Shown here in pieces: positions 27,890-54,981 of a stretch of 54,981 nucleotides of DNA; the stretch's first letter is position 1; each line of letters begins with the position of its first letter. The stretch lies in the NCBI GenBank assembly GCA_001793945.1, contig MGIW01000005.1, positions 1 to 54,981 of the forward strand, in the 5' to 3' direction. Under the pieces are notes generated by a model, which saw only the letters and a program-made list of their open reading frames with translations, did not search any database and was not told where the DNA came from. Source of the DNA: Candidatus Wolfebacteria bacterium RIFOXYD12_FULL_48_21 (GTDB lineage Bacteria > Patescibacteriota > Minisyncoccia > UBA6257 > UBA9933). The position numbers and the translations under genes are program-made.

Positions 27890-28075
27890 GAACTGGATCC
27901 CGGGTCAAGCCCGGGATGACAGCCTATTGCATTGTCATTCCGAGCCCGTTCGACAAGCTCAGGATAAACTCCGCAGTACTCTGCGAAGTCGAGGAATCTG
28001 TAGTAAAAAACGGATCTCTCGTCCGCCCGCTGGCGGATCGGGTGACAATGCGCGAGAATGACAAAAGTTATTCAT
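27890..28075. repeat. Interspersed palindromic repeats
   Basis: GGATCCCGGGTCAAGCCCGGGATGACA; TCATTCCGAGCCCGTTCGACAAGCTCAGGATAAACTCCGCAGTACTCTGCG. Confidence 0.85.
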
Positions 28076-28277
28076 GTCGCAAGTAGCATAATACAAGTAG
28101 TATGTAGCAAGTAGCATGAAACATGTCGCATGTAGTATGTGGCAAGTAGAATGTAGTATGTAGTATGTCCCACATCTCACCCCTCATACCTCACATCTCC
28201 CATCTCCCACCCCATACCCCATGTTGTTGGTTACTCAAAGTATGATATACTATACAAATAGATAGACATTTACCGCT

Positions 28278-31449: not shown

Positions 31450-32661
31450 ATGAAGTTCACCTACACTGCAATCAAACCGGATGGAAAGATGACATCCGGA
31501 GAGATGGAAGCGCCGGGCGCCGCACAGGTGCTTGAGTTTATTGCATCGCAAGGATTGCGTCCGGTATCGTTAAAAAAAGAAGGGCCTGAGGTGGGAATAG
31601 CGAAAGTGAAGTTTTTCCAAGCGGATATTACGATTGCGGACAAGATATTTTTGACGAAATATCTGGCGCTCATGCTGCGTATCGGAACCGATTTGTTTAA
31701 GGCGATAGACATTTTGATCGCCGATTTCGACAAGCCCGCAGTGCGCGCGTTGTTGTATGAGATTCGGGAAAATCTTGAAAAGGGGCAGCCGTTCCATGTG
31801 GCATTTGAAAAATATCCAAAGCATTTTTCGAGCGTGTTCATCAATCTCGTCAAAGCGGGGGAGCAGTCGGGTACGCTGGAAAAGACATTTGAGCAGTTGA
31901 GCGTAAATCTGCAACGCGAGCAGGCATTGCGGCAGGAAGTGCGTTCTGCATTAACCTACCCGGTCATTTTGGTCGGCGTGGCTTCGCTGGTCGTATTGTT
32001 GCTGGTCAGCTTTGCATTGCCAAAGATAGCCAATCTTTTTACCGATAGCGGGTCCGAGCCGCCGTTGTTTTCGAAGGTCGTGTTTACGATAGGACTGTTC
32101 TTGAATCAATATATTTGGGTCGTACTGTTGCTATTGGTCGGTGGCGTGGTTGGTACATGGGTCTTGATGCAAAATAGCAAGACGGCACAGCGGGTATTCC
32201 AGCACTTCATCCGCCGTATGCCGCTCATTGGGCCATTGCTGAAAAAGATCGCAATCCAGCGGTTTGCACTGACATTTTCCTCGTTGCTTTCTTCCGGCTT
32301 GCCCATACTCGAAGCGCTTGCCATTACGGCCGATGCGGTAGGAGATATGGAATTAAAGGAAGCGCTTACGCGCATATCGCAAGAAGGGATCGCAAAAGGA
32401 CTCACGATAGGAGACGCATTTAAGCGGGAACCCGCCTTTCCAAAGGTGGTGACGAATTTGGTGGCCATATCGGAAAAAAGCGGCAACCTATCGAACATTC
32501 TCGCTACGCTTTCGGAATTTTATGAATCTGAGATCAAGTCGTCGGTAAAGGTGTTGGTTTCGTTTTTGGAGCCGATGTTGCTGGTAGCAATAGGTGTCAT
32601 CGTGGGAGTCATTGCGCTTGCCATTATCGTGCCAGTGTACCAACTGATGGGTAAGTTTTAG
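31450..32661 (+). CDS. pilC: Type IV pilus inner-membrane protein PilC/GspF
   Basis: Two GspF domains (LALMLRIGTDLFKAIDIL; FSSLLSSGLPILEALAI). Confidence 0.93.
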   Translation: MKFTYTAIKPDGKMTSGEMEAPGAAQVLEFIASQGLRPVSLKKEGPEVGIAKVKFFQADITIADKIFLTKYLALMLRIGTDLFKAIDILIADFDKPAVRALLYEIRENLEKGQPFHVAFEKYPKHFSSVFINLVKAGEQSGTLEKTFEQLSVNLQREQALRQEVRSALTYPVILVGVASLVVLLLVSFALPKIANLFTDSGSEPPLFSKVVFTIGLFLNQYIWVVLLLLVGGVVGTWVLMQNSKTAQRVFQHFIRRMPLIGPLLKKIAIQRFALTFSSLLSSGLPILEALAITADAVGDMELKEALTRISQEGIAKGLTIGDAFKREPAFPKVVTNLVAISEKSGNLSNILATLSEFYESEIKSSVKVLVSFLEPMLLVAIGVIVGVIALAIIVPVYQLMGKF

Positions 32662-32789
32662 TATGTAGCAAGTAGCAAGTAGCATGGAGCGTGTAGTATG
32701 TAGTATGTCTCACATCTCATACCTCACATCTCACACCTCGTACCCCCCCCATGTGGCATGAAACATGTAACAAAAACACCGATAGCAAT

Positions 32790-38597: not shown

Positions 38598-38771
38598 TTC
38601 TTGTAAGTACGCTATACTATACCAAAGACAAAAATGGTTTTCAAGTTGCAGAATGCTCCAAAAGTACCGTACAATGGAATTAAACGACTGATATGTATGG
38701 ATTGCGGATAAGAGGCGTATGAATTTAATTTATACCTTATACCTTATACCTCATACCTCATACCCCTACCC

Positions 38772-41819: not shown

Positions 41820-42584
41820 CTAAGCAATCTTCTTCAAAAAACTATTTCGGTGTAACGGCGTGCGTCCATTTTTTCTGATCGCCGCGATATGCTTTTTTGT
41901 TCCATATCCCGCGTGCCGGTCAAATCCATACACGGGATATTTTTTATGCGCGCGTCGCATGAGCGCGTCGCGATGTTCCTTTGCGATGATTGAAGCAAAC
42001 GAGATGGCGGGAATTGTTTCATCGCCTTTGATGATAGTGGAAATGTTTAGGTCGGTGTATGCGCCGCTGACCGGATTATAAAATCGTGCGGAGTAATTGC
42101 GCTTCGTATTGTTTTTCAAATTTAAAATTTCAAATTTCAAATTGTGCTTTACAAAAAGTCCTCCATCTAAAAATACATCGATGCGTGCGGAGGCGGGGAG
42201 CGCGGTAAGCAGTTTTTCGAGTGCGCGGGTCGCCGCGCGGTTTGCGGCTTGGGTCACATTGATGCGATCGATCACGCGCGGAGTTACGGCCGCGACCGCA
42301 TGGTGGATGCGCGGGTCCGCTTTGATCGCCGTTGCCCATGTGTTGCGTTGCGAAGCGGAAAGTTTTTTCGAATCTCGTAGCACGAGGCCGCGGGTGAGCG
42401 GCTTTGTGCAAGACCCTGATCCGTCAGCTGACGGACGAGGGCGAAGTGGAATATGTTTAGCGATGGAGGCGGGACGCAGCCCCCGCGGAACGGCAACGGC
42501 GCATACGACAACCGGGCCGGCAAGCGGTCCGCGCCCGACCTCGTCGATGCCAATGATATATGAAATTGGGTTGCGGCTACTCAT
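41820..42584 (-). CDS. rnhB: Ribonuclease HII with repeat-derived insertion
   Basis: YIIGIDEVGRGPLAGPVVVCAVAVP, LRDSKKLSASQR; RPSADGSGS insertion. Confidence 0.93.
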   Translation of the reverse strand: MSSRNPISYIIGIDEVGRGPLAGPVVVCAVAVPRGLRPASIAKHIPLRPRPSADGSGSCTKPLTRGLVLRDSKKLSASQRNTWATAIKADPRIHHAVAAVTPRVIDRINVTQAANRAATRALEKLLTALPASARIDVFLDGGLFVKHNLKFEILNLKNNTKRNYSARFYNPVSGAYTDLNISTIIKGDETIPAISFASIIAKEHRDALMRRAHKKYPVYGFDRHAGYGTKKHIAAIRKNGRTPLHRNSFLKKIA

Positions 42585-42864: not shown

Positions 42865-45042
42865 ATGAAGCCAATGGCGAAAAAGAAGATGAAAAAGGGC
42901 GTTGTGGAAGAAAAAGGGGAACCGAAAAGGAGAGGCAGAAAACCGAAGGATGCTTCGGCCTATGAAGAAGATGGCGGGTCGTTGCTCGATCTGCAATTGC
43001 ACCCGGAAACCAAAAAGAGCATTTGGGCAATCGTCTCGTTTGGCGTTGCGGCTATTTTGTTGTTGGCGAGTTTTCAAAACGCAGGGCCGGCGGGCAATGT
43101 GCTCTATGGCGTTTTTCAAAGTCTGTTCGGCTGGGGATACTATTTGCTGCCATTGGTGCTTGTGGTGATCGGCGGCGTATTTTTGACATCGGAGCGCAGG
43201 AAGATATATGGCATAACATTTTTTGGCGCCGGGCTGTTCGTATTGTCGGGATTGGGATTGATCGATGTGCTGTCGTCGGACAAAGGTGGCTTTGTGGGCA
43301 AGATGGTTGGCTCATTGGAGTTGCTGTTCGGGTACGCGGCTTCTATCTTGGTCATTATGTTGCTGTTGGTAATTTCATTTTTGATCACACTGAATCTGCC
43401 GATCCGGATCAAGCGCGAGGGTAAGGAATGGGTGCTTGAAGAAGCCGAGGAAGAGGAAGGAATAGAAGAAGAGACCGACGCGCTGAAAAATTCCATAAAA
43501 AAGGCGGAGGAAAAGAAAGAGGAAGAAGCCGAGGAAGAAACGGATGTCGCGGTCGAACCGACGATCAAGGAAAAGATAGCCGCCGCCGTGGCCGGCAAGT
43601 TGAAAAAAGGCGAGACATTCAGCACACAGGATGACAAGGACTATGTGTTTCCGCCGATCGATCTGTTGCGATCGTCCGTGGAAAAGCCACAGGCAGGAGA
43701 TTTGCGCGCCAATGCAAATATCATCAAGCGTACGCTGGAGAGTTTTGGCATTATGGTGGAAATGGGGGAGATAAATGTGGGTCCTAAGGTAACGCGCTTC
43801 ACGCTGAAGCCAGCCGAGGGGGTTAAACTGTCGCGCATTACCGCGTTGAATCAAGATCTTGCGCTTGCCCTTGCCGCGCATCCGATTCGCATCGAAGCGC
43901 CTATTCCCGGTAAATCGCTGGTGGGTATCGAAGTGCCAAACAAAGCCGCCGCAGTGGTTCGTTTGGGTAGTCTTATCAATTATCCGGAATTCGCCGAAAG
44001 TGGCCAGTTGAGTTTTGCGGTCGGCCGCGATGTAACGGGTGAGCCGATGTTTGCCAATATCGCAAAGATGCCGCACTTGCTCGTGGCGGGAAGTACCGGA
44101 TCGGGAAAGTCGGTAACGATCCACTCGATCATTCTGTCATTGTTGTATAAAAATTCTCCCAAGACGCTTCGCATGATCATGGTAGATCCGAAGCGGGTTG
44201 AACTTTCGGTTTATTCGGGCATTCCGCATTTGATCGCACCAGTGGTGACCCAGTCGAAGAAATCGATGGGCGTGTTCCGCTGGGCATTGAACGAAATGGA
44301 TCGGCGGTACGAAATATTCGAAAGAGCGGGATCGCGTGACCTCGCAAGCTACAATAAGAAAAACCCGGGCGAAGTATTGCCGTATATTGTGATCATTGTG
44401 GACGAACTCGCGGATCTTATGAGTACCTATGGCAAGGAAGTGGAAGGTTCCATTGTGCGTTTGGCACAAATGGCGCGCGCGACGGGCATTCATTTGATAT
44501 TGTCTACACAGCGTCCGTCCGTGGAAGTCGTTACCGGGTTGATCAAGGCGAACATACCGGCGCGTATCGCGTTGCAGGTGGCGAGCCAAATAGACTCGCG
44601 CACTATTTTGGACATGTCCGGCGCGGAAAAATTGCTCGGCGGCGGAGATATGCTGGTTGCCGCAGGAGATAAGCCAAAGCGCATTCAAGGCGCATTTGTA
44701 TCGGAAGAAGAAATTCAAAAAGTGGCCCAATATATCCGCGATCAAAACAAGGATATCGGGGGCGAAGAAATATCATTTGATGCAAAACCGGCATCAAGTG
44801 AACAAGCCGGAGAAGGCATGTTCGATGCATTTTCAGGGAATGACAGTGAGGATGAATTGCTCGAACAGGCAATCGAGGTAGTGGTACAGGCGGAAAAGGC
44901 ATCGGCATCGCTGCTGCAGCGCAGGTTGAAGGTGGGGTATGCCCGTGCGGCGCGCCTGCTTGATATTATGGAAGAAAAAGGGATTGTTGGCCCGTCGAAG
45001 GGCGCAAATCCTCGGGAAGTATATATAAAGCAAGGAGAATGA
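42865..45042 (+). CDS. ftsK: FtsK/SpoIIIE DNA translocase
   Basis: LLVAGSTGSGKSVTIHSIILSLL, MVDPKRVELSVYSGIPHL, RATGIHLILSTQRPSVEVVTG, C-terminal gamma winged helix. Confidence 0.96.
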   Translation: MKPMAKKKMKKGVVEEKGEPKRRGRKPKDASAYEEDGGSLLDLQLHPETKKSIWAIVSFGVAAILLLASFQNAGPAGNVLYGVFQSLFGWGYYLLPLVLVVIGGVFLTSERRKIYGITFFGAGLFVLSGLGLIDVLSSDKGGFVGKMVGSLELLFGYAASILVIMLLLVISFLITLNLPIRIKREGKEWVLEEAEEEEGIEEETDALKNSIKKAEEKKEEEAEEETDVAVEPTIKEKIAAAVAGKLKKGETFSTQDDKDYVFPPIDLLRSSVEKPQAGDLRANANIIKRTLESFGIMVEMGEINVGPKVTRFTLKPAEGVKLSRITALNQDLALALAAHPIRIEAPIPGKSLVGIEVPNKAAAVVRLGSLINYPEFAESGQLSFAVGRDVTGEPMFANIAKMPHLLVAGSTGSGKSVTIHSIILSLLYKNSPKTLRMIMVDPKRVELSVYSGIPHLIAPVVTQSKKSMGVFRWALNEMDRRYEIFERAGSRDLASYNKKNPGEVLPYIVIIVDELADLMSTYGKEVEGSIVRLAQMARATGIHLILSTQRPSVEVVTGLIKANIPARIALQVASQIDSRTILDMSGAEKLLGGGDMLVAAGDKPKRIQGAFVSEEEIQKVAQYIRDQNKDIGGEEISFDAKPASSEQAGEGMFDAFSGNDSEDELLEQAIEVVVQAEKASASLLQRRLKVGYARAARLLDIMEEKGIVGPSKGANPREVYIKQGE

Positions 45043-45044
45043 TC

Positions 45045-45677
45045 ATGGAAGAACGAACAACGATAAATGAAATATTGGAGGAAGCAATGCGCGAGAAAAA
45101 AATGTCCATTGCGCGCTTGGCGGAACTGACGGATATTCCCGAGCGATATGTAACGCTCTTGGTGGAAGGAGGCCAGCAGGGACTTCCGCCTGCCCCGTAT
45201 GTGCGCGGCTATTTGATCCGCATGGCAACGGCGCTCGGACTTGATGGGCAACAGATCTGGCAGGCGTACATGAAGCAGCAGGAACCGAAAACATCGGGCG
45301 AAGGTGATACGCTTCCTATAAATCGATTTGCGTTCAAGCGTATGAACAAAAAAGGTATTGGCTTGATCGTGCTGGCGATAGTGGTCGTGCTGGTGGCGGG
45401 ATTTTGGATAAAGACAGTCGCCGGCAGAGAGGGGATCGATGTTAAAAATCCGGCGGAAGATAGCGTGGTGGTGTATGACCCGGCCATCGACCTGCGGGGA
45501 AAGGTAAACCCGGGGGAGCGGCTCACGATAAACAACGAAGATATTGCAATAGATCGAAACGGTTATTTCGAAAAGAACTTTTCGCTTGAACCGGGGATAA
45601 ATACCATTGAGTTTAAGGTAAAGCGGTTGCTCGGAAAGGAGGAGACAGTTGTTAAGCAGATTATCTATCCACAATAA
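45045..45677 (+). CDS. RodZ-like HTH membrane protein
   Basis: N-terminal Xre-like HTH, single TM, C-terminal Ig-like domain. Confidence 0.75.
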   Translation: MEERTTINEILEEAMREKKMSIARLAELTDIPERYVTLLVEGGQQGLPPAPYVRGYLIRMATALGLDGQQIWQAYMKQQEPKTSGEGDTLPINRFAFKRMNKKGIGLIVLAIVVVLVAGFWIKTVAGREGIDVKNPAEDSVVVYDPAIDLRGKVNPGERLTINNEDIAIDRNGYFEKNFSLEPGINTIEFKVKRLLGKEETVVKQIIYPQ

Positions 45678-45759
45678 AAATAGAGATACGAGGTTTGATA
45701 TATGAGATAAGGGGGGTAATAACCTCATCTCACATCTCACATCTCTTGTCTCACAACAC

Positions 45760-46815
45760 ATGGCAACAAAAAAAACAAAACAAACCGAGGGTGAAGTGAA
45801 GGACATGGACCAGTTGCTCGAATCAATGCAAAGCAAGTTTGGCGACGGCGCCATTATGAAGCTGAACGATATTAAGCGCGTGCATGTTGATGTGATTCCA
45901 TCGGGTTCGTTTTCGTTGGACATCGCATTGGGTGTAGGCGGGTATCCGAAAGGACGCATCGTCGAGATCTACGGTCCGGAAAGTTCGGGCAAGACGACCT
46001 TGGCACTGCACGCGATAGCCGAGGCGCAGAAAAAGGGTGGCAGAGCCGCATTCATCGATGCCGAGCACGCGCTTGACCCGGATTACGCAGGGAAGTTGGG
46101 CGTAAAGGTAAACGATCTGCTCATATCTCAACCGGACAGCGGCGAAGAAGCGTTGAACATCTTGGAAAGTTTGGTTAGCTCAGGCATTCTCGATATCATC
46201 GTCGTGGATTCTGTCGCAGCGCTTACGCCACGCGCCGAAATAGAAGGCGAAATGGGTGCGCAGTTCATGGGCCTGCAGGCCCGCTTGATGGGGCAAGCGC
46301 TCCGCAAGTTGGTCGCATTGGCTGACCGCAAAAAAGTGCTTATCATATTCATTAACCAGATCCGTGAAAAGATCGGTGTGATGTTCGGCAGTCCGGAAAC
46401 CACGCCGGGCGGGCGTGCGTTAAAGTTCTATTCGTCGGTCCGGCTTGATATTCGCCGCAATGCGCAGATCAAGAAAGGCGAAGATGTAATAGGAAACCGC
46501 GTTACGGTAAAGGTGGTCAAGAACAAGGTTGCTCCTCCGTTCAAGGCGACCGAGTTTGACATCATGTACGGCGAAGGCATTTCCTATGAAGGAGACATTT
46601 TGACTATGGGGTTGAAGCTCGGCACCATAGGGAAAAATGGCAACACCTACAGCTTTGAGGGCGAAAAGCTTGGCGTAGGCGTGGAAGCCGCCCGCGAAGC
46701 GCTGAAGGCAAACAAGAAAATGACCGAGGCGATCCGCAAAGCGACCAACGCCGCCATCGCACAGGCGATGAAAGATAAGGATAAGGAATCGAACGAGACA
46801 AAAAGCAAAGAATAA
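45760..46815 (+). CDS. recA: Recombinase RecA
   Basis: [63 protein letters not shown]. Confidence 0.98.
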
Positions 46816-46879
46816 ACATAAAAACATCCGTCCGCCAACTGGCGGACGGATGTTTTTATGTTCGCATTGGCATATTGCA

Positions 46880-47115
46880 TTCTCGTATTGTCATTCCCGT
46901 GAAAACGGGAATCCAGCATTTTTGCGTTGTCATTCCGAGCCTGTCGAGGAATCTGCAGTAAAACAGATCCCTGCTCCACCGCTAAAGCTATGGCGGCACG
47001 CGGTCGGTTTCACTTTGCTTCGCTGCGTTGCACTCGGGATGACAACCTTCTCGCATTGTAATTTTTCTCGCATTGTCATTCCCGCGCAGGCGGGGATCCA
47101 GTACTGGGTCATTCC
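46880..47115. repeat. Cluster of interspersed palindromic repeats
   Basis: GTCATTCCCGTGAAAACGGGAATCCAG; GTCATTCCCGCGCAGGCGGGGATCCAG. Confidence 0.85.
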
Positions 47116-47154
47116 AGCCTCCGAGCATAAACCCAGTTCTACCAAAGAACGCAC

Positions 47155-47194
47155 TTTGGTGTCCAAGTTGACGATCGTCAATTTGGACACCAAA
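47155..47194. repeat. 40-bp near-perfect palindrome
   Basis: TTTGGTGTCCAAGTTGACGATCGTCAATTTGGACACCAAA. Confidence 0.9.
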
Positions 47195-47272
47195 TGGGTG
47201 TGGGGTGGTGCAACTCAAGGTTGAATTCAAGCTTTTATTGTCGTAAATCGTCGTTCGCGGTATCATTGCACT

Positions 47273-48673
47273 ATGAAGTTCATCGCCGATCTGCACATGC
47301 ATTCCAAATACAGCCGGGCTACCAGTAAAAACATGATACTGGAAGAAATAGACCGAGTGGCGGGCGAAAAGGGTATTACGGTCATCGGCACGGGCGATTG
47401 CACGCACCCCAAATGGTTCAAGGAGCTGACGGAAAAGCTGGAGCAGGCCGAGCCAGGTCTGTTTAAATTGAAAAAGAAACACAAAAGACCGATGTTGTGG
47501 GAAACATTGGCTGATACACGGTTTATTATTTCCGGTGAAATATCGAGCATTTATTCGCGGGGAGGAAAAGTGAGGCGCGTACATAACATCATTTTGTTGC
47601 CATCGCTCGAAAGCGCGAAGCGGTTGAATGTTCTATTAGGCAAGCGGGGCAATATCGTGTCCGACGGTCGACCGATACTGGGTATTGATTCAGAAGAATT
47701 GGCAAAGATCATATTCGACATTGAACCGACTGCGATGATCATACCGGCACATTTGTGGACACCGTGGTTTGGCGTGCTTGGATCGGCATCGGGGTTTGAT
47801 TCGCTCGAGGAATGTTACGGTGCATATGCGGATCGTATCATCGCAGTAGAAACGGGCCTGTCGAGCGATCCGGCAATGAACTGGCGGTTGTCCAAGCTTG
47901 ATGGTGTGGCTATGCTGTCTAACTCGGATTCGCATAGCCCGCAAAAGATAGGCCGCGAAGCGACCATGTTTGATACGGAGCTGTCGTATGAGGGGATAAG
48001 GAACGCAATTAAGAATAGCAGTCCCCGGAATATATCACGGAGAGTTGTCATTCCGGCGGAGGCCGGAATCCAGAGTCTTACTGGTCGAACGACGCATAAA
48101 GAGCTGGACCCCGGTCCCCGATCAAGCCGAGGACAGGCCCTCACCCGCCGGGGTGACACTCAAAAAATTCAAAATAATTGCATCATCGCAACCCTCGAAT
48201 TTTTCCCCGAAGAAGGAAAATACTTTCATGATGGCCATCGCACCTGCGGTATGTCGATGACACCAAAGGAAACGAAAAAGAACAAAGGCATGTGTCCGGT
48301 ATGTGGCAAGCCGGTCACGGTCGGCGTATTAAATCGGGTGGATGCACTTGCCGATACCAAAACTACCGTTACGAGTAAGGGGAATATGCGCACGCAAGGA
48401 GATAGAGTGCCGTTTTATAGCATCATCCAGCTGAATGAGATCATTGCCGATGCATTAAGTGTGGGAGTAAAAACAAAAAAGGTGCAAGCGGCATACGAGC
48501 GGTTGCTCAAAGGCTGTGGCACCGAAATAGACATATTGATGAATGCACCGAAACGCGAATTGCTTGCGCATGCGGACGAACGCATTGTGCGTGGCATTAT
48601 GAATATGCGAGCGGGGGAGGTCGCCGTCATCCCCGGTTATGACGGGGAATATGGTAAGATACATATAAGTTGA
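47273..48673 (+). CDS. PHP-domain endonuclease, EndoQ-like, with repeat-derived insertion
   Basis: FIADLHMHSKYSRATSKNM; HRTCGMSMTPKETKKNKGMCPVCGKPVTVGVLNRVDALAD. Confidence 0.8.
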   Translation: MKFIADLHMHSKYSRATSKNMILEEIDRVAGEKGITVIGTGDCTHPKWFKELTEKLEQAEPGLFKLKKKHKRPMLWETLADTRFIISGEISSIYSRGGKVRRVHNIILLPSLESAKRLNVLLGKRGNIVSDGRPILGIDSEELAKIIFDIEPTAMIIPAHLWTPWFGVLGSASGFDSLEECYGAYADRIIAVETGLSSDPAMNWRLSKLDGVAMLSNSDSHSPQKIGREATMFDTELSYEGIRNAIKNSSPRNISRRVVIPAEAGIQSLTGRTTHKELDPGPRSSRGQALTRRGDTQKIQNNCIIATLEFFPEEGKYFHDGHRTCGMSMTPKETKKNKGMCPVCGKPVTVGVLNRVDALADTKTTVTSKGNMRTQGDRVPFYSIIQLNEIIADALSVGVKTKKVQAAYERLLKGCGTEIDILMNAPKRELLAHADERIVRGIMNMRAGEVAVIPGYDGEYGKIHIS

Positions 48674-48714
48674 AATTTAAAATTAGAAATTTGAAGTAAA
48701 TATCAAAATAAATA

Positions 48715-50124
48715 ATGAAGGACGAGATCGATATGATTCAAATAAAGAACGCCGTTGCAAATAATCTCAAGAATGTGAGCATTGATATTCCGTTAGGGAA
48801 ATTGGTGGCGGTTGTAGGGAAAAGCGGAAGCGGCAAGTCGTCGCTTATATATGATGTGGTGTACAAGGCATCGCAAGGGCACGCCGTGGAAGCGAAAGTG
48901 GGACCGCTGCCGAAGGTATTTGCGGTTGGGCAAAAGGTAAAGCCGACGGGCAAGATGAGTTTGGGAGAGACTAACTTCAAGCGGATGCGCGAAATGGTGG
49001 CGGAGGCAAAGAAAGGCAATCTGCTGATCGTCGACGAACCGTGCGCCGGAATGGCAAAAGAGGACAGGGAGAACATTTTGAAGATACTGAAAGACATTGT
49101 GCGAAAAGGCATATCGGTCATTATGGTAGAACATAGCAAAGATATGATCGTCGGCGCGGATCATGTTATCGAGTTTGGGCCGCATTCGGGGGCAAAAGGA
49201 GGCGAGGTAATCTTTCAAGGTTCGATCGCGCAATTTAAAAAGGCAAAAACGCCTACCGCGCTCTATGCGTTCTCGGATAAGGCGGGGAGCGTTGATTATG
49301 AAAGAAAGCCGAGCGATAGGGCAAAGGCCATGCAAAAGAAATGGCTGACGATCACGGGCATCGATAAGCATGTGATAAAGAACGGCGGAATCAGTTTTCC
49401 GTTGGGTAGTTTGGTGTGCGTTTCCGGGAGCATGGGGACGGGTAAATCGACATTGCTTTCCGTTGTCTACGGCGCCTTGTTTAAAGGAAAGAATGCATGG
49501 AAGATGCGACAAGGATTCAGGTCGATAGAGGGCAAAACGAATGTCAGGCGCTCCTATTTTGTCGACCAATCATTATTGAGCCAAATAGCCACAAGCACGC
49601 CGGCAACCTATGTGGGCATATGGGATAGCATCCGGGATGTATACGCAAAGCTTCCGGAGAGCAAAAAAATGAAATTGCATAAAACACACTTCAGTTTTAA
49701 TGCGAAAATAAATAAAGAAACGGAACAAAGGGTAGGCCGCGCGATATATAAGAGCAAGTCCATTTTTGATGTGCTGAACATGACTATCGATGAAGCTGCG
49801 GGATTGTTCGCCGACATTCCGCTGGTCGTTCGGAAGCTTGGGTTTTTGCAGGAAGTCGGTTTGGGGTATCTGGAGCTGGGCCAGCGTTCAAATACGCTCA
49901 GCGGAGGAGAGGCGCAGCGGGTGCGCTTGGCAAAGATACTGTCAAAAAAACTGGGCGACCGATGCATTTATATTTTGGATGTGCCGTCGCGCGGCTTGCA
50001 CCTGAGCGACCTGCCGACATTGATGAAGGTCTTGCAAAAGATCATCGACAAGAACAACACGGTGCTGATAGCGGAAAACAGGGAAGAGCTGATCAATAAC
50101 TGCGACCATGTTATAAGGCTATGA
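48715..50124 (+). CDS. Compact UvrA-like tandem ABC ATPase
   Basis: VVGKSGSGKSSLIYDVVY, GSMGTGKSTLLSVVYGALF, LGYLELGQRSNTLSGGEAQRVRLAKIL; ~470 aa. Confidence 0.75.
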   Translation: MKDEIDMIQIKNAVANNLKNVSIDIPLGKLVAVVGKSGSGKSSLIYDVVYKASQGHAVEAKVGPLPKVFAVGQKVKPTGKMSLGETNFKRMREMVAEAKKGNLLIVDEPCAGMAKEDRENILKILKDIVRKGISVIMVEHSKDMIVGADHVIEFGPHSGAKGGEVIFQGSIAQFKKAKTPTALYAFSDKAGSVDYERKPSDRAKAMQKKWLTITGIDKHVIKNGGISFPLGSLVCVSGSMGTGKSTLLSVVYGALFKGKNAWKMRQGFRSIEGKTNVRRSYFVDQSLLSQIATSTPATYVGIWDSIRDVYAKLPESKKMKLHKTHFSFNAKINKETEQRVGRAIYKSKSIFDVLNMTIDEAAGLFADIPLVVRKLGFLQEVGLGYLELGQRSNTLSGGEAQRVRLAKILSKKLGDRCIYILDVPSRGLHLSDLPTLMKVLQKIIDKNNTVLIAENREELINNCDHVIRL

Positions 50125-50242
50125 TGGCGAACAGGGGGTATAGGTATGCGGTAGCAGAGGGTGTCATGCGGACTTGACTTTTATTTGACAATTTGGTACA
50201 AATATAGCGTTATATTGAACATTTAAAACCTTGTATAAAAAG

Positions 50243-50294
50243 ATGAGGCGAGTAGTTAGGAGGTTTAAGAAAGCCTTTTGACTACTCGCCTCAT
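50243..50294 (+). promoter_or_regulatory. Long 5'-leader hairpin upstream of DGR target
   Basis: ATGAGGCGAGTAGT / ACTACTCGCCTCAT, 14-bp perfect arms, loop contains AGGAGG. Confidence 0.7.
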
Positions 50295-50353
50295 GAGAGC
50301 CGGGTCCTGCTTAGGCAGGCAAAATCAATTCTTCCGAAAAGGAGATGATGACG

Positions 50354-51262
50354 ATGAATGCATTGATCACATCAAGGGACCCCAATGGCCGGCAGGCAAC
50401 GAGTCTGTTCGAAGCCGCCTACAACAAGGCAAAGCTCGACGACCTTAGAGCGCAGCTGCTCAACGAGAAAGGTGGCGAGCTCCAGGCCGGCATCATCAAG
50501 CTCATCAACGAGCTGACGATGTCCAACCAGTACGCCAGCGAAGAAACGAAGTCCAACTACACCTACCCGTCGGAATACAAGGGGCCCAAACCGATCCAGC
50601 AGCAGATTGTGGCGATTGCCGACATCTTCAAACTTGATCCGGTCCACGCCCTTGAGTTCGCGAAAAATCTTCCCGAACTCAGATCGTTCGTTCCTAAAGA
50701 TGCTTTGGAGTGGACGGGCTGGTTTGCCATTCCCTCGATTGATGCCCTGGCCACCCGGTTTTTCCCGGAGGTCACCGACCCGGCCGAGAAGTACTGCCGT
50801 GCAATCATGCTCATCCACGAGAAGCTCGCCGCAACGAGGTCGTTCTACAACTGCCGCGAAGGGCAGATCGACAAGGAGCACCTGCAGATGCATGTCCGCA
50901 CTGTCGCTGCCATAGAGACCATCCAGGAAGCCCAGAAGGGCGATATCATGGTGATTGCCGCCCAGCTCGGTATGCGCCATCGTGGCCGCAGTGGCCGCAG
51001 AGCTCGTGAAGTCTTCTCGGCCAACGAGTTCGGCCTCAGTTCGCTGATGGTCGGCTCTATCGCCCTGGCTCATCCGGAACGGTTCGTTCGCAGCGAAGAG
51101 CTTGATATCGACTGCGCCGGAGACGAATGGTCCTCCGGGGGTGATGGCCAGTTCGGCAGGGCTCCGCTCTTCTTCTTCAGCGACGGGCTCGGGTTCGACG
51201 CGGTCGATCTCGACTACTTCCGCGACCTCTTTGGCTCTGGCTCCGCCTTTCTCTCGCAGTAA
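50354..51262 (+). CDS. DGR target protein, C-terminal variable region
   Basis: SD aaaggag; C-terminus GDGQFGRAPLFFFSDGLGFDAVDLDYFRDLFGSGSAFLSQ lies in VR. Confidence 0.88.
   Translation: MNALITSRDPNGRQATSLFEAAYNKAKLDDLRAQLLNEKGGELQAGIIKLINELTMSNQYASEETKSNYTYPSEYKGPKPIQQQIVAIADIFKLDPVHALEFAKNLPELRSFVPKDALEWTGWFAIPSIDALATRFFPEVTDPAEKYCRAIMLIHEKLAATRSFYNCREGQIDKEHLQMHVRTVAAIETIQEAQKGDIMVIAAQLGMRHRGRSGRRAREVFSANEFGLSSLMVGSIALAHPERFVRSEELDIDCAGDEWSSGGDGQFGRAPLFFFSDGLGFDAVDLDYFRDLFGSGSAFLSQ
51134..51260 (+). repeat. DGR variable repeat (VR)
   Basis: Aligned without gaps to 51664-51790 (+530); 20 differences, all at adenines in the template copy. Confidence 0.95.
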
Positions 51263-51291
51263 CTTTGCATTTTGTGCGCTTGAACTTTTTG

Positions 51292-51309
51292 ATCCGTCAG
51301 CTGACGGAT
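51292..51309. repeat. Perfect palindrome just downstream of VR
   Basis: ATCCGTCAGCTGACGGAT. Confidence 0.85.
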
Positions 51310-51337
51310 TGATCCTTGAGTTCGGCGCAACATACAG

Positions 51338-51368
51338 GCCATCCGCGTTCCGCGTGGGTGGCCTTTTT
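51338..51368 (+). terminator. Terminator after DGR target gene
   Basis: GGCCATCCGCGTTCCGCGTGGGTGGCCTTTTTTT. Confidence 0.8.
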
Positions 51369-51663
51369 TTGATTTTGAAAAAATTTTATGTATACTCAAA
51401 TTCAGATGGGGTTAATGGACGGCAGTTTACGGATTGCCGGCACCGCGTCCGCTCTTCAATAAAAACAACCGGAGTTCTCTTGATTACGGTTAAGGGGAGT
51501 GCGTTGCATTGGAGGGATACTGCTTGCTTTAGTCTGGCGCGGATGTTTTGTCTCAAAACTGTGCCGCCGATAAAATTCAGGATAAAAAGAATATAGCCCG
51601 ATGTCCTTAAAAATATCAGAAGTAAATCTTGATATCCGGTGATGCTGATGGGCGAAAGCAATA

Positions 51664-51790
51664 TCCGAGGGTGATGGCCAGTTCGACAAGGCTCCGATCT
51701 TCAACTTCAACGACAAGCTCAAGTTCGACGCGAACGATCTCGACAACTTCAACGACAACTATGGCTCTGGCTCCGCCTTTCTCTCGAAGT
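51664..51790 (+). repeat. DGR template repeat (TR)
   Basis: TCCGAGGGTGATGGCCAGTTCGACAAGGCTCCGATCTTCAACTTCAACGACAAGCTCAAG...; AAC/AAG-rich in the VR frame. Confidence 0.95.
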
Positions 51791-51806
51791 CACTCTTCAA
51801 TGCTAT

Positions 51807-51837
51807 AACAATACCCGCTATATTAGCGGGTATTGTT
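51807..51837. terminator. Bidirectional terminator between TR and avd
   Basis: AACAATACCCGCTATATTAGCGGGTATTGTT. Confidence 0.85.
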
Positions 51838-51847
51838 GAAAAATAGA

Positions 51848-52201
51848 TCACTGGCTGTCTTTTATGGATTTTATCCATCCGCCGAGCATTCTGCCTATCT
51901 CATCAATGTGTTCCTGAAGGAGGATATATTTTTTGGTATCGATCGCCTTGATATCTTTGGCAAGACGGACGAATATTCTGAACATGTTTATTTCCGTGCT
52001 CGCCTTCTCAAGAAAAGGCAGCTTCTGCTGTTTAGGGACTTGTCCGCCGATCATGATATGTTCCATGATATCCAAAAGCATGTTTTCGCATTTTTGCCAC
52101 AAGGCGTAACGGTCTTGTTTTGGAACAGTCTGCCGGATGGCGTAAAAGGTTTTGTATAGCTCATAGGTTTTTTTGAAGATGGGGATGTCGAGATCGTTCA
52201 T
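51848..52201 (-). CDS. avd: DGR accessory protein Avd-like (four-helix bundle)
   Basis: FKKTYELYKTFYAIRQTVPKQDRYALWQKCENMLLDIMEHI...RIFVRLAKDIKAIDTKKYILLQEHIDEIGRMLGGWIKS. Confidence 0.88.
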   Translation of the reverse strand: MNDLDIPIFKKTYELYKTFYAIRQTVPKQDRYALWQKCENMLLDIMEHIMIGGQVPKQQKLPFLEKASTEINMFRIFVRLAKDIKAIDTKKYILLQEHIDEIGRMLGGWIKSIKDSQ

Positions 52202-52218
52202 GGTTGTAGTTGGTTATT

Positions 52219-53338
<1,120 letters not shown>

Positions 53339-53396
53339 AATAGGGGTACATAGTATTTTCCTTGTCCCATACCTCATTTCCCCTTATACTCTTGGT

Positions 53397-53966
53397 ATGG
53401 TTATTCCATTTTTCTACTTATTTGTATTTTTATTTGCGGCAATCATTCACGAGGTCGCGCATGGCGCAATGGCGTATAAGTTGGGCGATCCGACCGCAAA
53501 GGACGCGGGGCGTTTGACATTGAATCCGATACGGCACATCGATCCGGTCGGGTCCATATTGCTGCCAGTAATGCTCTACCTGTTTCAGAGTCCGATCCTG
53601 TTCGGCTGGGCGAAGCCGGTGCCGTTCAACCCGATGTTCTTGAAAAACCCGAAGCGCGATGGCGGACTGATTGCGCTGGCAGGGCCGGTAAGTAACTTTG
53701 CGGTAGCGGCGGTCTTTTATGCCATTACGACGGGAATGTCGGTTTTTGGCGTGATCATACCAAACTTGCCGACATTTTTATCCATTATCATCTTTGTGAA
53801 TGTATGGCTTGGCATCATTAACCTTGTCCCATTGCCGCCACTCGATGGTTCAAAGGTATTGTTCATGCTGTTGCCGAAAAAATGGCACGGCGTCGAGCTG
53901 TTTTTGGAAAAAAATGGGCCGATATTGCTGATGATTCTTATTCTCATGCTCTTGTTTGTCTTCTGA
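53397..53966 (+). CDS. Site-2 protease (M50) family membrane peptidase
   Basis: AAIIHEVAHGAMAYKLGD; NLVPLPPLDGSKV. Confidence 0.92.
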   Translation: MVIPFFYLFVFLFAAIIHEVAHGAMAYKLGDPTAKDAGRLTLNPIRHIDPVGSILLPVMLYLFQSPILFGWAKPVPFNPMFLKNPKRDGGLIALAGPVSNFAVAAVFYAITTGMSVFGVIIPNLPTFLSIIIFVNVWLGIINLVPLPPLDGSKVLFMLLPKKWHGVELFLEKNGPILLMILILMLLFVF

Positions 53967-53982
53967 GCGAGGCTATGTCATT

Positions 53983-54052
53983 CCGAGTGAATCCGTCAGC
54001 CGACGGAGAAATCGAGGAATCTGCAGATCCCTCGGCAAGCTCGGGATGACAA
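53983..54052. repeat. Interspersed repeat
   Basis: GTCATTCCGAGTGAATCCGTCAGCCGACGGAGAAATCGAGGAATCTGCAG... Confidence 0.8.
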
Positions 54053-54152
54053 TATATGAATAACATGGGCTTCCAAGCTGTCAAATGTGCCTCGTGAGGC
54101 GCATTTGTTTTTTAGGGGGGCTTTTGATAAAATCAGGGTAACGCATTACGGT

Positions 54153-54611
54153 ATGACCAACAGAGTGACAGTGCAAAGCATCGATAAGAAGTTTGAGGCG
54201 CTCAGGCGTCCGGTACAACAAAAAGTACTGGCCATTCTTGCGGCCCTTAAAAAAGAAAATGTTTCGATAGATGTATTGTTGTTGGGAAACAGACAGATGC
54301 GCACATTGAACAGGCTTTATCGGGGAAAAGATTCTTCGACAAATGTATTGAGTTTTGAGGAGCCGAAACAATTCGTGTATCCGAAGGAAGAAATACGCAG
54401 AAAAGGGGAGATCTATTTGAACCCGGAAATGTCGAGCGATTGGTGGACGAAGCGGAATAAAAAGAAATCAGCTGAATTTTTGGGAATCGATTTTCTTTTG
54501 GTCCATGGCGTGTTGCACTTGTTTGGATTCGATCACATTGTTGGCACCGACGCCGTAAAAATGGAACGGAAAGAAACGGCGATCATGAAATTATTAGAAA
54601 TTAAGAATTAG
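54153..54611 (+). CDS. ybeY: Endoribonuclease YbeY
   Basis: LNRLYRGKDSSTNVLSFEEPK; LLVHGVLHLFGFDH. Confidence 0.92.
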   Translation: MTNRVTVQSIDKKFEALRRPVQQKVLAILAALKKENVSIDVLLLGNRQMRTLNRLYRGKDSSTNVLSFEEPKQFVYPKEEIRRKGEIYLNPEMSSDWWTKRNKKKSAEFLGIDFLLVHGVLHLFGFDHIVGTDAVKMERKETAIMKLLEIKN

Positions 54612-54636
54612 AAATTAGAAATTTTTATCACCCCTC

Positions 54637-54981
54637 ATGTTTATCACTGCACTTGATCTTGGAACGGCGGAAATAAAATTGGCGGTCGCGGAAGTCGGTA
54701 AAGACGGTAAATTGTCGATCCTCGAAATGGTAAAGGTGCCGTCCGGGGGAGTGAACAAAGGAGAGGTGACCGATGTGGAAGCGGCAACGGCCGCACTTGA
54801 AGCGGCATTCGATGAAATAGCGGGCATCGATAAGTCCGTGTTGGATAATCTGTTTGTGAACATTAACGGCAGGCGCGTTGTGGTAAGCGGTTCGCGTGGC
54901 ATCGCGGCCGTTTCACGCGGAACAAATGAAATAGGGCAGGAAGACATGGATCGCGCCATTGCAGGAGCGGAAGCTATTAAG
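54637..54981 (+). CDS. ftsA: Cell division protein FtsA (partial, runs off window)
   Basis: MFITALDLGTAEIKLAVAEV; INGRRVVVSGSRGIAAVSRGTNEIGQEDMDRAI. Confidence 0.88.
   Translation, partial: MFITALDLGTAEIKLAVAEVGKDGKLSILEMVKVPSGGVNKGEVTDVEAATAALEAAFDEIAGIDKSVLDNLFVNINGRRVVVSGSRGIAAVSRGTNEIGQEDMDRAIAGAEAIK

Follow-up and report, generated by a model that had tools for sequence, protein, structure and literature searches.

Why does a dinucleotide microsatellite, (GA)35, interrupt the reverse transcriptase (RT) gene of a DGR whose repeats bear the marks of adenine mutagenesis, and could such a cassette still diversify its target? The question is raised by a locus in the window, which is the whole stretch of DNA that was analysed (54,981 nucleotides of contig MGIW01000005.1 from Candidatus Wolfebacteria bacterium RIFOXYD12_FULL_48_21). 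The preliminary description had read this locus as a DGR from two repeats that align without gaps, differ only at template adenines and share an A-free 3' stretch:

51134 to 51260, forward strand: variable repeat (VR), by alignment to the TR
51664 to 51790, forward strand: template repeat (TR), by alignment to the VR
51233 to 51256, forward strand: A-free 24-bp block GGCTCTGGCTCCGCCTTTCTCTCG, IMH-type 3' end in its VR copy, identical in the TR

Recomputing the alignment gave the same result, a gap-free match at an offset of 530 with 20 mismatches in 127 bp, each of them an A in the TR. The VR carries G at 10 of these positions, T at 6 and C at 4. Because the TR has 31 adenines among its 127 positions, the chance that 20 of 20 mismatches would all fall on them is P = 8e-16. 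In the frame of the VR, 11 TR adenines occupy codon position 1, 20 occupy position 2 and none position 3, and those mutated are divided between position 1 (9) and position 2 (11). The shared A-free stretch was also found as described, with the TR copy of the 24-bp block at 51763-51786; VR and TR diverge 3' of 51260, beyond this block, which we regard as a putative IMH-type element. The VR ends at 51260, two bases short of the end of the target stop codon (51262). When the whole genome was searched with the TR, only the TR itself and the VR at 51134-51260 were returned, and no further VR/TR-like pair differing at a single template base was found within 44001-54981.

The cassette is ordered as target with VR (forward strand), TR, a strong hairpin, avd (reverse strand) and RT (forward strand):

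50345 to 51262, forward strand: DGR target (variable protein) of 305 aa with the VR at its C-terminus, an open reading frame with homologues in relatives
51807 to 51837, forward strand: perfect 14-bp hairpin (AACAATACCCGCTA-TAT-TAGCGGGTATTGTT) between the TR and the end of avd, from sequence
51848 to 52201, reverse strand: avd (accessory variability determinant), 117 aa, without a repeat tract in this copy, by NCBIfam and Pfam
52219 to 52771, forward strand: upstream half of the DGR reverse transcriptase, from ATG 52219 through palm motif A (CDIKKFF), RVT_1
52772 to 52841, forward strand: (GA)35 microsatellite, a perfect repeat in the RT loop that separates motif A from motif B
52844 to 53338, forward strand: downstream half of the DGR reverse transcriptase, with GIPIGNLTSQ (motif B) and catalytic YTDDF, RVT_1

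With a target, a TR and head-to-head avd and RT genes, the locus is a bona fide DGR, and the A-only VR/TR differences, the avd gene and an RT family nearest to the DGR RT 8ub7 all uphold the original reading. Two further points on which the preliminary description had let that reading depend were found in its favor: VR/TR pairs in relatives differ at A only (the same-genus genome G003 has its own pair, with 18 mismatches in 92 bp, all at A), and a homologous RT is present. One part of the reading must be corrected, in that the RT is not an intact open reading frame; (GA)35 shifts its halves into different frames.

The avd gene matched NCBIfam NF033474 DivGenRetAVD with 88.3 bits against a cut-off of 80, and Pfam bAvd at 3.9e-19. 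It is divergent from the RT gene, which differs from the avd-TR-brt operon of the Bordetella phage BPP-1 DGR (PMC12875486). The head-to-head arrangement was seen here and in all loci with a detected avd in the survey described below, except L032, the sole surveyed cassette with avd on the RT strand; L032 has no repeat tract. The hairpin at 51807-51837 is likely the 3' end of the TR RNA. A similar strong hairpin lies 10-20 nt 3' of the TR, before a convergent avd, in most of the patescibacterial GA-tract loci examined, and it is absent in the DPANN loci checked, where the RT begins directly after the TR. No Rfam family was found within 50000-53400.

Homologues of the target were found in 17 of 151 relatives, and in their alignment the body is conserved and the C-terminus (hyper)variable. 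The C-type-lectin fold expected of this protein was not confirmed: the target had no match in Pfam or NCBIfam or among PDB sequences, and an AlphaFold2 model of middling pLDDT (73.7) returned no PDB fold match from Foldseek at E<=0.001. A C-type-lectin or Ig-like target domain is not essential to a DGR, because nanoarchaeal DGRs have orphan genes as targets (PMC4372165). Perhaps the target serves in ligand binding.

RVT_1 was matched by each half of the RT. The frame of the upstream half ends at a stop at 52920. The tract itself lies ahead of motif B and of the YTDD active site; the halves would join in frame at a repeat number n of 0 mod 3. In the 878,700-base genome, (GA)35 is the sole (GA)6+ tract. 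The same RT site holds (GA)17 in G003 and (GA)11 in a Harrisonbacteria genome (G105/L061), both out of frame, and these first three alleles seen (n = 35, 17 and 11) have an identical residue, 2 mod 3. Between this genome and G003, whose RT alleles are both out of frame with n = 35 vs 17, the dN/dS of the RT was 0.107 for the part upstream of the tract and 0.086 for the part downstream; further RT pairs gave similarly low values where dS was unsaturated. With dN/dS near 0.1 on both sides and the tract site kept in 60 further loci, the frame break is not decay, and these sequence comparisons point to an RT gene under selection despite out-of-frame alleles.

The place of the tract in the protein was examined in an in-frame relative, L095 (n = 13). 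Its RT had as its best PDB sequence match 8ub7 (5.7e-50), the RT of the BPP-1 DGR (PDB 8ub7-8ubf), and its model, with a mean pLDDT of 89.4, also had 8ub7 as its best fold match (TM 0.89). The extra residues of the L095 RT map between chain positions 172 and 175 of 8ub7, where the BPP-1 enzyme (bRT) has almost no loop. The sole segment of the model below a pLDDT of 50, residues 184-194, adjoins the Arg-Glu stretch beginning at 198. Because the repeat adjoins only this low-confidence loop, the model suggests that the tract site tolerates changes in length when in frame.

We consider it probable that this DGR diversifies the C-terminus of its target and that production of full-length RT is switched by slipped-strand mispairing at (GA)n. 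RT and Avd would copy the TR RNA, making errors at its adenines, and the resulting cDNA would take the place of the VR. Slipped-strand mispairing would change n of the tract in the RT surface loop; at n = 0 mod 3 a full RT with an (Arg-Glu) loop would be made and the DGR would be ON, and at any other n translation would run out of frame before motif B and YTDD, turning the DGR OFF. The assembled allele, n = 35, would be an OFF allele, and earlier ON periods would have produced the A-only VR.

Then, we asked how far the tract extends beyond this genome. A scan of 85,488 genomes for (GA)6+ followed within 30 nt by a GIPIGN-type motif found 60 further loci with a GA tract at the same RT site, with n = 6-26, or 6-35 when this locus is included; these lengths are taken from assemblies, in which slight miscounts are possible, of homopolymers above all. 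All loci with informative titles belong to Patescibacteria/CPR or DPANN archaea, and those with uninformative titles fall among CPR or DPANN rows in the RT tree. Palm motif A lies upstream of the tract in 59 of the 61 loci and YxDD downstream in 60, the remaining one ending at a contig end. The tract is in frame in 11 loci, at +1 in 24 and at +2 in 26. The range of n and the presence of all three frames are differences between species, with one genome for each species. A de novo search recovered A-only TR/VR pairs from about 38 of the 61 loci, including 32 of the 50 that are out of frame, and in the pairs recovered the TR lies 3' of the VR on the RT strand. Among 389 genomes taken as a phylum sample, an RT match was present in 120 and the GA pattern in 14. 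We also considered that the GA tract is a neutral feature of the genome; this was rejected, since this genome has no second (GA)6+ tract and the 430,592 bp of the GA-tract loci hold no other dinucleotide tract of 6 or more units. Arrays of 7-bp units are present elsewhere in the window (28073-28168, 32659-32708, 38730-38764, 42114-42143 and 45726-45745), and arrays of a similar kind were seen at several other patescibacterial loci.

The scan was limited to one repeat unit at one site. We therefore also collected 58 RT loci by RT homology alone (order and phylum samples, best matches) and scanned them for any repeat, a survey that is biased to the clade of this RT because its loci are the best matches to it. 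Exactly one tract was found in 38 of the 58 loci, none in 20 and two in no locus, so that about a third of the cassettes lack a tract at the thresholds used. Only one of 80 viral RT loci taken as a control had a tract (Fisher p = 4e-18 for 38/58 vs 1/80). In the RT loop, the tracts were (GA)n, (CT)16 in L133, and G10 in L009 and in L188, the last of which was added because of its truncated-looking RT. At the junction of avd and RT, they were C9-12, (GA)23 and 4-mer and 5-mer arrays in the first avd codons, between the start codon and the Avd domain. Among the avd tracts, 22 could be read, of which 5 were in frame with a start and 17 were out, the start codons being inferred. Cassette tracts have units of 1, 2, 4 or 5 nt and never of 3 or 6. 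RT and avd tracts combined were in frame in 17 of 89 cases, below one third (p = 0.005, assuming independent tracts and correct assemblies), which suggests that OFF is the commoner state.

A tree of 100 RTs requires 4 changes from one tract site to the other and 12 events in which a tract is gained or lost. Deep branches of both CPR and DPANN carry GA tracts, and relatives differ in unit type. Tracts at the avd site were seen in Patescibacteria; the DPANN examples are all of the RT-loop type, in a group where RT-loop GA tracts alone were sought. Two loci had further peculiarities. In L021, a 10-base N gap lies beside the poly-C tract of avd, as if the assembler had failed there, and the RT of L067 has an extra stretch (FFLCHSERVLESRNLPFHAGDSSAMLGMTEM) directly after motif A that resembles a translated intergenic repeat.

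The single viral-collection RT locus with a tract, L211 (IMG/VR contig 3300025669_000701), has G11 at the avd position. Its RT groups with patescibacterial avd-type rows in the tree, and for this reason the contig may represent a provirus or wrongly assigned host DNA. A (GA)7 version of the scan pattern had 0 matches in 2.9 million viral contigs. A phage-borne origin was rejected on these grounds: no GA-tract RT in the 2.9 million viral contigs, and one tract (G11) in the 80 viral RT loci.

Taken across these groups, Patescibacteria and DPANN would carry a single frame-shifting repeat in a cassette, placed in the loop of the RT or, for Patescibacteria, within the first avd codons, which would make hypermutation a stochastic, reversible contingency trait. 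We think it likely that hypermutation is gated in this way, by a single contingency tract in a cassette (located in the palm loop of the RT, or at the 5' end of avd in Patescibacteria) that is reversible, selected across two domains and mostly OFF. The proposal builds on the anatomy of the cassettes, the conserved position of the tract, the purifying selection and the mixed frames. Switching by strand slippage would take place within populations and species, and OFF alleles would presumably make no active RT.

The main rival to phase variation is recoding, in which RNA polymerase or the ribosome slips on (GA)n or on a homopolymer, so that some in-frame RT or Avd is made constantly at a low level from any allele and the tract sets dosage instead of acting as a switch. 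GA tracts are free of stop codons in every frame and a slip of 2 nt permits re-pairing, and slippage in transcription or translation on GA could yield some RT from any allele. The agreement of the first three alleles in their residue mod 3 also fits recoding, as does the purifying selection that persists downstream of the tract in spite of out-of-frame assembled alleles. Against this, all three frames occur in the 61 loci, so that no single shift is conserved; the depletion of in-frame alleles suggests that the frame of the DNA matters; and there is turnover of both units (C, GA, CT, 4-mer, 5-mer) and sites (RT, avd) that retains only units which shift the frame. We thus regard recoding as unlikely. 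Its strictest form, a single conserved programmed frameshift, had been considered when n = 35, 17 and 11 were all found to be 2 mod 3, and it was rejected as a general rule by the presence of all frames in the 61 loci.

Much less probable is that the RT is a decayed pseudogene beside a relic VR/TR difference, or that another RT acts in trans. The assembled RT frame is broken, and the genome does contain a second DGR (L194, at C6:104000-112000 of this genome, G000) with A-only VR/TR differences (14 mismatches in 135 bp) and an intact RT of 352 aa. But dN/dS is about 0.1 on either side of the break, the break falls exactly at the repeat, and the catalytic motifs are intact in relatives from two domains. 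In the second DGR, a C9 tract puts avd out of frame, and as assembled, one DGR of this genome is without an in-frame RT and the other without an in-frame avd; trans-complementation in mixtures of ON and OFF is possible. Other G9 tracts of the genome are at C3:156395-156412, C3:158037, C3:164567 (which appears intergenic), C5:97461 and C6:227862.

An artefact of assembly or sequencing at a low-complexity tract is very improbable. Nearly all the loci come from metagenome assemblies and L021 has its N gap at the tract, but the tract recurs in one codon region in 60 loci that come from many projects, a typical read is longer than a tract of 6-15 units, and no GA tract occurs elsewhere in these loci or in this genome, even if exact unit counts may be off. 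Hardly credible, too, is a two-part RT whose halves are translated as separate polypeptides and then assemble, for which the split does fall between motifs A and B, but inspection of G003 showed no apparent ATG, GTG or TTG ahead of, and in frame with, the downstream half, the tract is inside one compact domain of the model, and about a fifth of the tracts are in frame.

Known contingency loci control mostly surface structures and methyltransferases. If slippage at the tract is the switch, the genes switched here differ from these in that they run a targeted hypermutator, and the hosts, Patescibacteria and DPANN archaea, differ as well. In other respects the cassettes resemble the contingency loci of Haemophilus, Neisseria and Campylobacter, which likewise have a hypermutable frame-shifting tract in coding sequence, mixed frames among relatives and turnover of unit type (PMC6321876, PMC2651432); a long perfect frame-shifting repeat lies in coding sequence here too, far above background.

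DGRs in CPR and DPANN were already known (PMC8144416, PMC4372165), and one DGR clade is described as restricted to Patescibacteria by Roux 2021 (PMC8144416; DGR clade 2). The cassettes described here are like those reported from CPR/Patescibacteria and DPANN in their A-only VR/TR differences, RT, avd and hosts (PMC8144416, PMC4372165). In the literature searched, outside of which lies Paul et al. 2017, we found neither repeat tracts nor frame breaks described for RT or avd, and no phase variation of these genes. A split frame in RT or avd may have caused many DGRs of Patescibacteria and DPANN to be scored as broken or overlooked in annotation.

How the activity of DGRs is regulated in nature is an open question (PMC12875486), and a slippage switch, if true, would supply an answer in a large, uncultured group of microbes. 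It would couple two known devices of evolvability, a random on/off switch timing a directed mutator. A population that is mostly OFF with rare ON cells would then retain good receptor variants, yet explore new ones.
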